A program made the position numbers and the translations under genes. Shown here piece by piece: positions 20,353 through 51,109 of a stretch of 64,000 bases of DNA. The notes below the pieces were generated by a model. That model was not told the DNA's origin, did not search any database, and saw nothing but the letters and a program-made list of their open reading frames with translations. The DNA is from Rhodococcus sp. Leaf278 (lineage in GTDB: Bacteria > Actinomycetota > Actinomycetes > Mycobacteriales > Mycobacteriaceae). The stretch is from the NCBI RefSeq assembly GCF_001426085.1, contig NZ_LMRR01000043.1, positions 62,001-126,000 of the forward strand. Reading direction: 5' to 3'. The stretch's first letter is position 1. Every line of letters starts with the position of its first letter.

Positions 20353-21275
20353 CGTGGAGCTACCTCCTGTGCCTGGAACGACTCTCTCACAGCGGCAGGA
20401 CCCAATTCGAGATCGTCGGCCGGGCGCACCGAGAACCCGACACCGTACAGCTGCGCCACGGTGCTCATTCGGAGATACGCGTCGCTGACGACGAATTGGA
20501 CTTGGATACGTTGCGGGGGGCCGATCGCCTGAATGTCGTACGGCGAGTCGATCGGGCGGTTGTCCAGCAACATGGCCCCGCCGGCCTGCCGGATGGTGAC
20601 GTTCGGACCGACTCGAACGCCGTCCACCGATACCGCCTCTGCACCGCTGGCCCACAGCGAGTTGACGATTGCGGCGATATCTCGATCCAGCACTGCGGCG
20701 CCCGAGCCGGTACGAGCCCCCGGACCGCTCCCGCCTGTCGGCTCCGTGACGACGATGGACAGTCCCGGACCCGAGACCGTGTCGATACCCGCCGCGGATT
20801 CGACGGCACTCAATCGGTCCAGCAGTGCACTGCCCGCAGCGTCGGACTGCAGGGCTCGATCACGCTCGGTCGACACCTGCTGGGCAAGTTCGTCTCTCGT
20901 CGATTCCAGGTCGGCGCTTCGAGCCTGAGCGGCTCGGACGGCTGCGGACGCATCGGCACCTGCACGCTCGACCGCGGCAGCACCGGATGCCGACTGGGAA
21001 AGAGCGACTCCGCATATCAGACCGACCACAACGGCACCTGTCGTCAACCACAAGGCCGCAGGCACTCGCGGCCTACGGGTGTGCTGCGCTGTGCGTTCGG
21101 CCGCCGCGGCGGCGTATCCCGGATCGAGGTGGTCGGTCAGCAACGAGGTCAGCAGCGACGGGACAGGATTTCGCCTGACCCTGACCCTGTCCCCCGGTCG
21201 TTCCGCAGGCTCCACTCCTGCCCCCGGTCGTTCCGCAGGCTCCACTCCTGCCCCCGGTCGTTCCGCAGGCTCCAC
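20349..21275 (-). CDS. DUF881 membrane-anchored protein (second), repeat-containing N terminus
   Basis: 308 aa from GTG 21275. The start is uncertain: three copies of a 30-bp repeat each encode VEPAERPGAG with an in-frame GTG (21275, 21245, 21215), and each repeat supplies a GGGGCAGGA ribosome-like site before the next GTG. One membrane helix (about 75-95, LWLTTGAVVVGLICGVAL), a coiled coil (about 100-150), then a DUF881 domain. The longest choice matches the mycobacterial homologue's length. Located 2 bases from the pgsA stop and overlapping the DUF1290 start. Confidence 0.83.
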   Translation of the reverse strand: MEPAERPGAGVEPAERPGAGVEPAERPGDRVRVRRNPVPSLLTSLLTDHLDPGYAAAAAERTAQHTRRPRVPAALWLTTGAVVVGLICGVALSQSASGAAAVERAGADASAAVRAAQARSADLESTRDELAQQVSTERDRALQSDAAGSALLDRLSAVESAAGIDTVSGPGLSIVVTEPTGGSGPGARTGSGAAVLDRDIAAIVNSLWASGAEAVSVDGVRVGPNVTIRQAGGAMLLDNRPIDSPYDIQAIGPPQRIQVQFVVSDAYLRMSTVAQLYGVGFSVRPADDLELGPAAVRESFQAQEVAPR

Positions 21276-23247: not shown

Positions 23248-23412
23248 ATGGGACGTGAAACGAACGCAGACGACGAGACACCGACCGACAGCGAGAATTC
23301 GACTACGCCCGATTCACCGAAGGGCGGCCGCCCAGGACCGGTGGACGGCGGAGGCGGCGGCGGGATGGCGACACGTGAGAATGCGCCGGAGATCGCAGAC
23401 GGCTCTGCCTGA
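23248..23412 (+). CDS. Small Gly-rich mini-protein, divergent from idi
   Basis: 54-aa open frame, ATG at 23248, TGA ending 23412. N-terminal half is acidic and Ser/Thr-rich (GRETNADDETPTDSENSTTP), followed by GGRPGPVDGGGGGG and MATRENAPEIADGSA. No hydrophobic segment and no Cys. Its lack of hydrophobics, acidity and Gly-rich core resemble the repeat peptide encoded 102 bases downstream, though there is no clear alignment. It could be a second substrate of the cupin oxygenase, or an unrelated small protein. No good ribosome site, so it may be a leaderless transcript. Confidence 0.4.
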   Translation: MGRETNADDETPTDSENSTTPDSPKGGRPGPVDGGGGGGMATRENAPEIADGSA

Positions 23413-23440
23413 AAGTTCCACACCACGGCTGTTTGAAAAA

Positions 23441-23446
23441 TATAGT
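23441..23446 (+). promoter_or_regulatory. Candidate -10 element for the repeat-peptide/cupin operon
   Basis: TATAGT within an AT-rich patch (TTTGAAAAATATAGTT) that stands out in GC-rich surroundings. It fits the actinobacterial TANNNT -10 pattern; no good -35 is seen at 16-18 bases. It lies about 70 bases before the peptide start, after the stop of the preceding mini-gene, implying the peptide and oxygenase have their own promoter. Confidence 0.45.
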
Positions 23447-23514
23447 TCGCGTCAATACCCCCGATGTTCTCGCGCGACGCGGGCACACGAACCTCCACGA
23501 CCGGAAGGATCTCG

Positions 23515-23772
23515 ATGAGCATCAACGACGACGACATCACCACCACGGGCGGAGCCGCAGGCGAAGGCCCGGCTGACGGCGGATCGAACCCGGGTGGCCA
23601 TGACGGCGGAGCAGACGGCCCCGCCGGAGCCGGCGAAGGCCCCGCCGACGGCGGATCGAACCCTGACGGTCACGACGGCGGAGCAGACGGTCCCGCCGGA
23701 GCCGGCGAAGGCCCCGCCGACGGCGGCTCCAACCCCAATGGACACGACGGCGGTGCGGACGGTACCGCTTGA
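23515..23772 (+). CDS. Tandem-repeat Gly/Asp-rich peptide, putative oxygenase substrate (RiPP-like precursor)
   Basis: 85 aa. ATG 23515 with ribosome site GGAAGG (23503-23508). A 15-residue N-terminal segment (MSINDDDITTTGGAA) is followed by three copies of a 24-residue unit, GEGPADGGSNPxGHDGGADG plus PAGA; the last copy ends GTA. Only position 12 of the unit varies (Gly, Asp, Asn). The whole peptide uses just eleven amino-acid types, with no Lys, Arg, Cys or aromatic residue, and one His and one Asn-Pro per repeat. The stop overlaps the start of the cupin gene. The architecture (short leader, multiple cores, adjacent modifying enzyme) suggests a post-translationally modified multi-core peptide; this is inference. 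Confidence 0.8.
   Translation: MSINDDDITTTGGAAGEGPADGGSNPGGHDGGADGPAGAGEGPADGGSNPDGHDGGADGPAGAGEGPADGGSNPNGHDGGADGTA
23560..23769 (+). repeat. Three tandem 72-bp coding repeats
   Basis: Units at 23560-23631, 23632-23703 and 23704-23769 (last one short). Differences between copies are nearly all silent third-base changes apart from the variable codons for residues 27, 51 and 75, so the protein repeat appears to be kept by selection rather than being a very fresh duplication. Confidence 0.9.
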
Positions 23773-25031
23773 TCACTGAGTCGAGCGACGAGCGCGGATC
23801 GGATAACCGGTCCGCGCTCCGTCGTCTCACCGGTGTAGACCTCGCGACGTTCGCCGATCGGTTCTGGGGCGTCGCGCCCAAGCTGAGCAGATCCGCTGAT
23901 CTCTCGGACTCGTTCGACGATCTGATGACGCTCGCCGCGGTAGACGAACTGATCGCCGAACGCGGAGTACGCACTCCGTTCGTGCGAATGGCCAAAGACG
24001 GTCGGCTGCTGGACAAGTCGCAGTTCACCGCGTCCGGCGGGTTCGGTGCCGAGGTCACGGACCAGGTCGACTCCGCAGCGGTGCTGGCAGCCTTTGCGGC
24101 CGGAAATACGCTGGTACTTCAGGGCCTGCACAGACTGTGGCCCCCGTTGATTCATTTCGTCGGTGATCTCGTTCGCGAGCTGGGCCATCCAGTGCAGGTC
24201 AATTCGTATGTCACACCGGCTGCGTCGCAAGGTTTTTCACCGCACTACGACGTGCACGATGTGTTCGTCGTACAGATCGCGGGAACCAAGCGGTGGAGCA
24301 TTCACTCACCGGTGCACGTGCATCCGCTCAACAATCAACCGTGGTCGGACCGGCGGTCGGCCGTCGAAGACCACGCATCGAATACTCCCGAACTGGACAT
24401 CGTCCTCGAGCCCGGCGATGTGCTCTACCTGCCGCGCGGGTGGATCCACTCGGCGCAAGCGCTCGGTGACACCACAGTGCACCTGACCATCGGCGTCGCG
24501 TCGTACAACGACTACGACCTCGCGCACCACGTACTGAAGTCGCTCGGCGACGTCGAGAGTCTGCGTGCTCCTCTTCCCGCCGGCCTCGACCACTCCGACC
24601 CGGAGTCCATCGTCCCGCACGTGCATCGAGTTGTGGACGCCATGCGTGCCGCGCTCGACGACATCGACCGAGACCCCGCTGCGGTACGTCGACTCGCCGA
24701 ACGCCTCGCAGACCGTCACGACGCCCTCGTCCGACCGGAACCGGTGCGCCCACTGGCCAGTGTCGCCGCGATGGGTGCGTTGCGGGGCGAGGATTCGATT
24801 CGATTGCGGCCCGGCATGTTCGCGCGGATCGCGCACGACAAGGACGGAGTGTCGATGGTGCTTCGGAACAAAACCGTCACGCTGCCGCCTCAGTGCACCG
24901 ACGCGATCGAGAGCCTGATGAAGGGCTCTCCGTGCCGCCTCGATTCGATGCCGGGCCTCGACCCCGGCGACGCACTGGTGGTCGCGCGCAGACTCATTCG
25001 CGAGGGGATAGCGGTGACGGCAGCGCCGTAG
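23769..25031 (+). CDS. JmjC/cupin-4 (ribosomal-oxygenase-like) Fe(II)/2-oxoglutarate dioxygenase
   Basis: 420 aa, soluble. TTG 23769 overlaps the TGA of the repeat-peptide gene (TTGA), so the two are translationally coupled. Cupin_4/JmjC core at about residues 110-245: SPHYDVHDVFVVQIAGTKRW gives the HxD iron ligands (His159, Asp161) and probable 2-oxoglutarate Lys174; the distal ligand is His227 in LPRGWIHSAQ. A helical dimer region and winged-helix-like C terminus (about 270-420) follow, as in ribosomal oxygenases of the YcfD/MINA53/NO66 group, which hydroxylate Arg or His in ribosomal proteins. Because the coupled peptide has no Arg but one invariant His, Asn and several Asp per repeat, it is the likely substrate (inference). 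Confidence 0.85.
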   Translation: MITESSDERGSDNRSALRRLTGVDLATFADRFWGVAPKLSRSADLSDSFDDLMTLAAVDELIAERGVRTPFVRMAKDGRLLDKSQFTASGGFGAEVTDQVDSAAVLAAFAAGNTLVLQGLHRLWPPLIHFVGDLVRELGHPVQVNSYVTPAASQGFSPHYDVHDVFVVQIAGTKRWSIHSPVHVHPLNNQPWSDRRSAVEDHASNTPELDIVLEPGDVLYLPRGWIHSAQALGDTTVHLTIGVASYNDYDLAHHVLKSLGDVESLRAPLPAGLDHSDPESIVPHVHRVVDAMRAALDDIDRDPAAVRRLAERLADRHDALVRPEPVRPLASVAAMGALRGEDSIRLRPGMFARIAHDKDGVSMVLRNKTVTLPPQCTDAIESLMKGSPCRLDSMPGLDPGDALVVARRLIREGIAVTAAP

Positions 25032-25037
25032 CCGCCG

Positions 25038-25799
25038 TCAGGTGATCGTGACCCCACCGTCGACCGCAATGGTCTGACCCGTCACGTATCCCCCGGCGTC
25101 GGAGGCGAGCCAGATCGCGGTGGCGGCCAGTTCCTCGGGATCGCCCTTGCGGCCGAGGATCATGCGTGGAGCCATCGACTCGAGGTACCCGGGCTGATAG
25201 CTGTCGGTCATCTCACTCTGGAAGAAGCCCGGGGCAATGGCATTGACCCTGATCCCTTTTCGCGCACCCCACTGCTGCGCAAGGTCGCGGGTGAGCCCGA
25301 CGATGGCTGCCTTGCTTGCGCTGTAGGCGGCCTGAGGCAGGCCTGCAGTGGTCAGACCGAGCACGCTCGAGATGTTCACGATCGAACTGCCGGGCGCCAT
25401 CACCCGTCCGCACGCCTGGGCCGCCCAATACGACCCGTTCAGATTGATGTCGATCACCGAGCGAAACTGCTCGGGGGTCTCGCGGGTCGCCGGGAAGGCT
25501 GTGCCGATGCCGGCGTTGTTGATCAGCACGTCTACCTTCCCGAACTCTGCCACTGCGGCGTCGACCATCGCGGAGCACTGGTCAGGATCGACCACATCGG
25601 TCCCGACGGAGATCGAACGTCCTCCGACACTGTCGATCAGCTTCGCGGTCTGCGCCAATTTGTCCACCCTTCGCGCGGCGAGCACGACGTCGGCCCCGGC
25701 CTCGGCAGCTGCTTTGGCGAAGGCGACACCCAGACCCGAGGATGCGCCGGTAACGACGACAACTCGGCCGTCGAGGCGGAATTTGTCCAAGATCGACAT
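25038..25799 (-). CDS. SDR-family oxidoreductase
   Basis: 253-aa classical short-chain dehydrogenase. Rossmann motif TGASSGLGVAFA (residues 18-29), NNAG, catalytic Ser in NISSVLG, and YSASK for Tyr/Lys; ends with the usual TGQTIAVDGGVTIT. NADP preference is possible from the ARR after strand 2. ATG 25799 with AAGGAG. It lies downstream of the acyl-CoA dehydrogenase in the same direction (27 bases apart), suggesting a fatty-acid or alcohol oxidation operon; it converges on the cupin gene with a 6-base gap. Confidence 0.92.
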   Translation of the reverse strand: MSILDKFRLDGRVVVVTGASSGLGVAFAKAAAEAGADVVLAARRVDKLAQTAKLIDSVGGRSISVGTDVVDPDQCSAMVDAAVAEFGKVDVLINNAGIGTAFPATRETPEQFRSVIDINLNGSYWAAQACGRVMAPGSSIVNISSVLGLTTAGLPQAAYSASKAAIVGLTRDLAQQWGARKGIRVNAIAPGFFQSEMTDSYQPGYLESMAPRMILGRKGDPEELAATAIWLASDAGGYVTGQTIAVDGGVTIT

Positions 25800-49738: not shown

Positions 49739-51109
49739 GTGAAATCACGATGGACGAGGATGTTCGTTCTCGCCCTACTCAGGACCGTCTGTTCGCGGGG
49801 TCGATATCGACTGGGCCCAGTTCTGGGCCGCGGTGCCATGGCCGACGTCGTGCACGCGGAGGACCAAGTCCTCGGCCGACCGGTGGCAGTGAAGATATTC
49901 CGCCACGGCGAACCGGTGGACACAGCCCAACGGATCGACGCAGAGATTCGAACCCTGGCGTCGCTGTCGCACCCAGGCCTGGTCACGTTGTACGACGCAG
50001 GAACTGCCGAGGACGCCGCAGGATTGGCCACGCCCTTTCTGGTGATGGAATTGATCGACGGACCGACGCTCAACAGCTTTCGCCGGAACAGATCGATGCC
50101 CGCCGTCCATGTTGCGCGGATCGGAAACGAGATGGCGGAAGCGCTCGCGTACATCCACGACCGGGGCGTGGTGCACCGGGACATCAAACCAGCCAACATC
50201 CTGATCGCTCACGCCCCGGACTCGGGTGCGGGTCAGTGCGTCAAACTGGCCGATTTCGGTATCGCCCGCATCGTCGACTCCGAGCGACTCACCGAGCACG
50301 GCACCACAGTCGGCACCGCGCACTATCTCAGCCCGGAACAGGCGACGGGTACGTCTGCGGGACCGCCGTCCGACATCTACACACTCGGCCTCGTCCTCAT
50401 CGAGTGCCTCACCGGCACAATGGTATTCGAGGGCAGCGCGGTGGCCGCCGCGGTAGCGCGACTGCACCGTGATCCCGCCGTCCCCGAGAATGTCGGGCCG
50501 GAGTGGCATTCGCTGCTGACGGCTATGACGTCTCGGCAGCCGGAGGATCGCCCCGACGCAGCTGCCGTCGCGCACCGCCTGCGCAGGATCGTCGGAAGCA
50601 CAACCCCACTGCCGCCGACCGCAGTGATACCTGTCGAGCGCACGAACGTAGTTGCGGCTGCTGATCTCGTAGGCACCGCGCACAATCCAGTGCGTCGACG
50701 TTGGATCGTTCCGGTGGCGGCCGCGCTCGTCCTCGCGCTCGGAGCGGGAATCATCTGGCTGGCGTCCAGCGCAAGCGACGACCCGGGTCAGGTGCCTGCA
50801 TCACCGACGACACCGACACCGAACGAGTCGCCGATCGCCGTACCCACGACGCAGGTGCCGCAGCCTTCGCCGACCACCTTGCCGAACCCGACCATCGCCG
50901 AGGTGACGCCATCATCGAATCCGGTGCTGATCCAACCTGCAGCACCGGCAGCACCCGCCGCACCGCAGCAGAACGATAATCCCGGCAACGGCAATTCGGG
51001 CAGGGGCAACGGCAACTCAGGTCCCGGGAACTCCGGAAACGGCAATTCAGGCCCCGGTAACTCCGGAAACGGCAATTCGGGACCGGGAAACCCTGGTAGA
51101 GGAAACTGA
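49739..51109 (+). CDS. Transmembrane Ser/Thr protein kinase with Gly/Asn-rich extracellular tail
   Basis: 456 aa as an intact frame from GTG 49739. Hanks-type kinase domain at about residues 23-290: GRGAMADVV loop, Lys52 in VAVKIF, HRDIKPAN (Asp147), DFG 171-173, GTAHYLSPEQ. One membrane helix near 323-343, then a Pro/Thr/Ser linker and a tail of NGNSGPGNS repeats. The N terminus is odd: in another frame ATG 49750 encodes MDEDVRSRPTQDRLFAG, which would run straight into RYRLGPVLGRG if one G were removed from the GGGG at 49797-49800. The annotated start may therefore be an artefact of a one-base insertion. Confidence 0.85.
   Translation: MKSRWTRMFVLALLRTVCSRGRYRLGPVLGRGAMADVVHAEDQVLGRPVAVKIFRHGEPVDTAQRIDAEIRTLASLSHPGLVTLYDAGTAEDAAGLATPFLVMELIDGPTLNSFRRNRSMPAVHVARIGNEMAEALAYIHDRGVVHRDIKPANILIAHAPDSGAGQCVKLADFGIARIVDSERLTEHGTTVGTAHYLSPEQATGTSAGPPSDIYTLGLVLIECLTGTMVFEGSAVAAAVARLHRDPAVPENVGPEWHSLLTAMTSRQPEDRPDAAAVAHRLRRIVGSTTPLPPTAVIPVERTNVVAAADLVGTAHNPVRRRWIVPVAAALVLALGAGIIWLASSASDDPGQVPASPTTPTPNESPIAVPTTQVPQPSPTTLPNPTIAEVTPSSNPVLIQPAAPAAPAAPQQNDNPGNGNSGRGNGNSGPGNSGNGNSGPGNSGNGNSGPGNPGRGN

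Follow-up and report, generated by a model that had tools for sequence, protein, structure and literature searches.

In the window (the whole stretch of DNA that was analysed, 64,000 nucleotides), the gene of an 85-aa repeat peptide overlaps that of a JmjC/cupin oxygenase, and sequence comparison and structure prediction suggest a dedicated, RiPP-like precursor–oxygenase pair in which the enzyme most likely hydroxylates aspartate (probability about 0.6). Because many actinobacteria carry such a gene pair, the locus looks like an undescribed peptide-modification system, probably hydroxylating the peptide's aspartates. Within this reading, the peptide is very probably the substrate of the oxygenase, the reaction is probably a hydroxylation, and a role of the resulting hydroxy-Asp array as a metal ligand is put forward tentatively.

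Layout of the locus and constraint on the peptide gene

The peptide gene starts with an ATG located behind a GGAAGGA site, and its stop codon is interlocked with the TTG start of the oxygenase gene. The features of the locus are as follows.

23431..23458 (+): GTTTGA-N16-CAATAC, a conserved element located 84 nt upstream of the peptide's start codon
23503..23509 (+): GGAAGGA, ribosome-binding site for the peptide, kept in 13/13 sister loci
23515..23772 (+): putative precursor peptide gene, 85 aa, including the stop codon (open reading frame, pN/pS, homologues)
23515..23559 (+): predicted leader MSINDDDITTTGGAA, 15 aa (conserved residues in 55 aligned peptides)
23560..23769 (+): predicted core, three tandem repeats GEGPADGGSNPxGHDGGADG, with x = G, D, N
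23560-23631, 23632-23703, 23704-23769 (+): core repeats 1, 2 and 3, of 24, 24 and 22 aa
23769..23772 (+): TTGA overlap of peptide stop and oxygenase TTG start, with a GCTTGA junction in 13/13 sister loci
23769..25031 (+): oxygenase of the JmjC/cupin group and ribosomal-oxygenase type, 420 aa (PF08007, invariant residues, predicted fold)
24243-24245, 24249-24251 and 24447-24449 (+): predicted iron ligands H159, D161 and H227 (PF08007, alignment)
25038-25799 (-): short-chain dehydrogenase, convergent, the next gene after the oxygenase

The peptide with its three near-identical repeats, the TTGA overlap and the cupin reading frame had been described in a first-pass annotation, and all are present at these coordinates; the peptide is also free of Arg, as described there, with a single His, a single Asn-Pro and three or more Asp per repeat. 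The tandem repeat is found independently, with a period of 72 nt and 2.9 copies (23560-23768). The peptide gene is real and under strong protein-level constraint. Among 12 genes of the same length, comprising the window's gene and 11 sisters, the summed pairwise differences are 1222 synonymous and 202 non-synonymous, with a pN/pS of 0.058. This ratio, together with the homologues across the phylum, rules out an artefact or a non-coding GC-rich repeat. The peptide has no match in a Pfam search at a threshold of 0.1, and four family peptides have none in NCBIfam at E 1; when four further precursors are compared with NCBIfam, the sole match is NF033629, at 17 bits, far under its cut-off of 60.

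Upstream of the gene, the GTTTGA-N16-CAATAC element at -84 is seen in the window and in 9 other scanned loci, all belonging to the R. fascians group; the window's genome is itself placed in this Rhodococcus fascians ('Rhodococcoides') group by its nearest named proteins and records. The element is a putative promoter or regulatory site. A 54-aa open reading frame (MGRETNADD...PKGGRPGPVDGGGGGGMATRENAPEIADGSA) lies just 5' of the peptide gene at 23248-23412 (+); it has no Pfam match and is kept in 11 of the 13 sister loci, being absent from L013 and L014. Elsewhere in the window, the open reading frame at 49739-51109 (+), which by eye resembles a Ser/Thr protein kinase, ends in NGNSGPGNSG repeats with a 30-nt period, and a 30-nt repeat is present in three copies at 21186-21275.

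Pairing of the peptide with the oxygenase across genomes

The oxygenase is found in 35 of 36 other congeneric genomes, and in all 29 loci examined from these 35 genomes the peptide lies directly upstream of it. The number of repeats is one in L020, two in L005 and L025, and three in the other 26. A covariation of repeat number with the enzyme, for which the first-pass annotation had suggested a test, is not seen, as L005 carries two repeats next to an enzyme 94% identical to the window's (informal comparison). Among 296 genomes of the class, 31 contain the window's peptide type, in every case just upstream of the oxygenase, on the same strand and within about 330 nt of the oxygenase match (coordinates compared by eye). 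The exception is a weak second peptide match, G159:C155, which is not upstream of an oxygenase.

A total of 96 class genomes match the oxygenase at 1e-10, 60 with near orthologues and 36 with more distant ones; the near loci were read in 59 of 60 (G195 excluded, contig end) and the distant loci in 11 of 36. The region upstream was scored for Asp-richness (Asp content minus R/K/C/F/W/Y/L), with thresholds of 0.10 and 0.13 that were chosen after the scores were known. A score of at least 0.10 is reached in 56/59 class oxygenase loci against 1/212 control genes, and a score of at least 0.13 in 53/59 against 0/212. The loci below 0.10 are L104 and L106, where another acidic protein is located upstream, and L082, where the contig begins. 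The oxygenases of L104 and L106 fall inside the GTPGV clade, and their different acidic upstream protein ends in GADLPEDQADGQGPTVEPGA or alike. In a set of 80 named loci (Rhodococcus, Subtercola, Herbiconiux, Agreia, Cellulomonas, Curtobacterium, Leifsonia, Agromyces, Gordonia, Williamsia, Dietzia, Mycolicibacterium and others), 78 pass the threshold of 0.10, and the remaining two were judged by eye: L197 lies at a contig edge with repeats visible, and the repeats of L210 are interrupted by N.

Outside the class, 27 genomes match the oxygenase at 1e-40, and 19 of these loci were read. An Asp-bearing core is positioned upstream in 18 of the 19, including L241, whose ADGTDQGVxGGTYGPRDA repeats have a low score of 0.05 and were accepted by eye; the acidic leader is visible in 17 (the leader of L250 is not displayed), and the sequence of L246 begins inside the gene. 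Of the 11 more distant PF08007 loci of the class that were read, 5 have DGTDSSSDFI-like precursors, and in the other 6 no comparable peptide is clearly recognisable; the pairing is thus not general for PF08007 proteins. A homologous peptide upstream of orthologous oxygenases, whose absence had been named in advance as a refuting outcome, is found, and the RiPP-like features proposed for the window recur as a conserved dedicated pair with leader and core organisation across congeneric, class and phylum loci. A mobile element was considered and rejected: the plasmid records that match the enzyme, 36 in number and 31 of them from Streptomyces, all have less than 60% identity to it.

Leader, core, enzyme and candidate target residue

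In 55 aligned peptides, D7 of the leader is invariant, and D5, D6 and I8 are each conserved in at least 90%. The acidic leader, approximately L/I-x-DDD-I/M-x-T, is kept in most peptide types across the phylum while the core differs, so that similar leaders precede cores as unlike as (DGGA)n, DGDATDTTDGDAS and DADGTDGDGTD. It is seen in 123/136 peptides, a count that is inflated because the choice of start favoured acidic leaders, and in the GTPGVxDGG clade it is mostly gone. On a tree of 87 oxygenases, with core types labelled by simple patterns, core type largely follows enzyme clade; the tips that break this rule are L095, L103, L104, L106, L086 and L150, and L118 is mislabelled. Judged from these alignments, a conserved leader joined to a variable core is a RiPP-like arrangement, with the GTPGV clade and its little leader as the exception, and the gene of the predicted precursor adjoins that of the predicted modifying enzyme as a conserved pair.

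The oxygenase matches PF08007 at 104.9 bits against a cut-off of 22. The intact HxD...H iron ligands reported in the first-pass annotation are confirmed as H159, D161 and H227, invariant in 26 aligned proteins, and K174 is likely the 2-oxoglutarate Lys. The predicted model of the enzyme matches the whole ribosomal-oxygenase (ROX) fold: a PF08007 JmjC domain with HxD...H is followed by helical and C-terminal winged-helix parts, with strands and then helices modelled past residue 340. Enzymes of this type are known for modifying ribosomal proteins. The solved folds closest to the model are NO66 and MINA53, which hydroxylate His of ribosomal proteins; to NO66 the sequence match of the oxygenase is weak (94.9 bits for the profile). 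Proteins of the family are currently named cupin, NO66 or L16 arginine hydroxylase. One source calls a Leifsonia homologue 'BatC'; among 8 papers listed for BatC with Mycobacterium, none concerns this family by its title.

The fold relationship raises the possibility that the His (or Asn) found once per repeat is what the enzyme hydroxylates, by analogy with NO66 and MINA53, which act on His of ribosomal proteins. In the window's sub-family (266 units), His is present in 98.9% and Asn in 99.6%, so that both residues are nearly invariant there; this does not extend to many sister cores, where Asp remains. In 250 units from 120 listed homologous peptides, the Asp position that the search pattern leaves free holds Asp in 247, while His is kept at its position in 206 and Asn in 234; the other 44 units have Q, R, S, N, T, A or K in place of His. 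In the wider family, among 61 Asp-rich cores (a count that excludes L104, L106, L115, L120, L125, L128, L129 and L130), 19 have no His and 35 no Asn, as in the (ADGG)n core of L094. In these sequences Asp is the constant core element and His and Asn are not, although the constancy of Asp is partly circular because the peptides were picked by Asp content. Since many sister cores are without His or Asn and still contain Asp, Asp would be the likelier target. It is the best single candidate and somewhat favoured, with His as its main rival; hydroxylation of His or Asn is unlikely overall.

Accessory genes, proposed chemistry and known systems

In most relatives, a third gene downstream of the oxygenase encodes a thioredoxin-like [2Fe-2S] protein of PF06999, present in 61 of the 80 named loci. 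The window's whole genome has no PF06999 match, and the three-gene cassette is not found in it. Within one genus, this gene stands beside the oxygenase in some species (L016-L018, L020, L023, L026-L031) and is absent in others (L003-L015). The protein carries a motif that is invariant in 20 sequences, C130-X8-C139, X23, H163-x-G-G-D167. Its closest known counterparts are Apd1/Aim32 and the thioredoxin-like [2Fe-2S] ferredoxins (PMC11138216). The bishistidinyl [2Fe-2S] proteins of the Apd1/Aim32 kind have C-X8-C-X24-75-HxGGH, and the third protein of the relatives departs from this pattern with HxGGD. A Foldseek search with the PF06999 model gives no PDB match at E <= 0.001; the ferredoxin match of the model comes from the VIA-align list.

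The presence of a [2Fe-2S] partner suggests further redox steps in the relatives, and the core might be oxidatively cross-linked, macrocyclised or cleaved in its backbone, and not just hydroxylated. A 2025 paper, reference 45 of PMC12710340, reports by its title macrocyclisation by a 2-oxoglutarate oxygenase in RiPPs. The window, however, does without the partner gene, and the cores are rich in Gly, Ala and Asp, with Cys, Trp and Tyr almost absent; both points count against such reactions, and they are quite unlikely here. The peptide might also be a disordered acidic partner or regulator of an enzyme whose real target is another molecule, such as a ribosomal protein. The ribosomal-oxygenase architecture is consistent with this, as is the surrounding gene content: a protease or exporter is common, not universal, in RiPP clusters, and none recurs within about 5 kb in 60 loci (crude ORF calling). 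A substrate nevertheless fits better than a structural partner, because core type is linked to enzyme clade, the leader stays constant while cores change, and the number of repeats varies; a non-substrate role is improbable.

The preferred reading, a precursor–oxygenase pair directed at Asp, implies the following mechanism. The locus would be a RiPP-like cassette reduced to a precursor and its modifying enzyme. The JmjC oxygenase would recognise the acidic leader, possibly via its C-terminal winged-helix part, and, using Fe(II), O2 and 2-oxoglutarate, would introduce several hydroxyl groups into the repeat core, the C-beta of Asp in DGG/DG motifs being the most likely site. The [2Fe-2S] protein that the next gene encodes in most relatives may assist the reaction or help to make use of what it yields, a contribution that the window's genome would dispense with.

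A distant cassette in one family (L117, L121, L122, L126, L127) encodes a PF08007 protein that has diverged further and a precursor of 35-37 aa that ends in ...DGTDSSSDFI or close. A prolyl oligopeptidase is present in this distant lineage only, and 4 of the 5 loci encode a FhuF-like protein, in which the FhuF_C 2Fe-2S domain is above its cut-off and the larger FhuF model below. The FhuF-like protein is the only hint of iron. An IdeR-type box was not found in the 250 nt upstream, where the best candidate, in 2 loci, differs at 6 of 19 positions and shuffled controls match at least as well. A ribosomal siderophore-like product would fit this lineage, because it pairs a ...GGDNDGTDSSSDFI-like precursor with the enzyme family, the prolyl oligopeptidase and the FhuF-like [2Fe-2S] protein. 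It is rather doubtful that the whole phylum holds an undescribed class of ribosomal peptides built as beta-hydroxyaspartate arrays, in which a lone ROX-type JmjC enzyme would recognise an LxDDDIxT leader and the arrays, together with a [2Fe-2S] redox partner, would serve to bind iron or some other hard metal.

Across the entire phylum, a ribosomal-oxygenase fold is tied to a peptide gene that encodes both a leader and a repeated core. Should this be borne out, the system would constitute a new and very simple RiPP-like class, with hundreds of substrate–enzyme pairs for comparison, one genome collection containing 478 encoding stretches. It would offer a natural means of hydroxylating a peptide at multiple sites, and it would suggest a function, open to testing, for the proteins that at present go by the names cupin, NO66 or L16 arginine hydroxylase. 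The PF06999 [2Fe-2S] proteins would gain context as well.

In the open-licence text of PubMed Central (subscription papers and most preprints lying outside this scope), no description of such a peptide family was found, and the strings DGGADG, GHDGGAD, EGPADGG and DGDATDTTDG occur there in one unrelated paper. The first-pass remark that no described family is known to show this combination holds for the peptide within that scope; for the enzyme it is narrowed by JmjC proteins already known in RiPP pathways, and for that reason the system is not categorically new. An update of RRE-Finder remarks on PF08007 proteins with RRE-like folds, whose bacterial homologues it places in RiPP-like contexts (PMC12710340). 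These belong to the same Pfam family as the oxygenase described here, and the section of that paper that treats them does not describe a precursor family, a leader motif, an Asp core or a PF06999 partner. What sets the present oxygenase apart from the PF08007 enzymes NO66, MINA53 and YcfD/RoxA is that its gene, in most of the loci read, adjoins one for a dedicated repeat peptide. In biphenomycin RiPP biosynthesis, as presented in the passages on BipG (PMC12707348), this JmjC 2-oxoglutarate/Fe(II) enzyme has a ribosomal precursor peptide as its substrate, of which it hydroxylates an ornithine. The cluster of BipG is large and includes several tailoring enzymes, whereas the oxygenase here has at most a single [2Fe-2S] protein as its partner, and faces Asp-repeat cores. 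Hydroxylation of peptide Asp to 3-hydroxyaspartate is described for PesHI in nitrilobacillin RiPPs, in the part of PMC13060819 that concerns it; there, a different enzyme system modifies a single Asp, while an array is proposed for the peptides described here.
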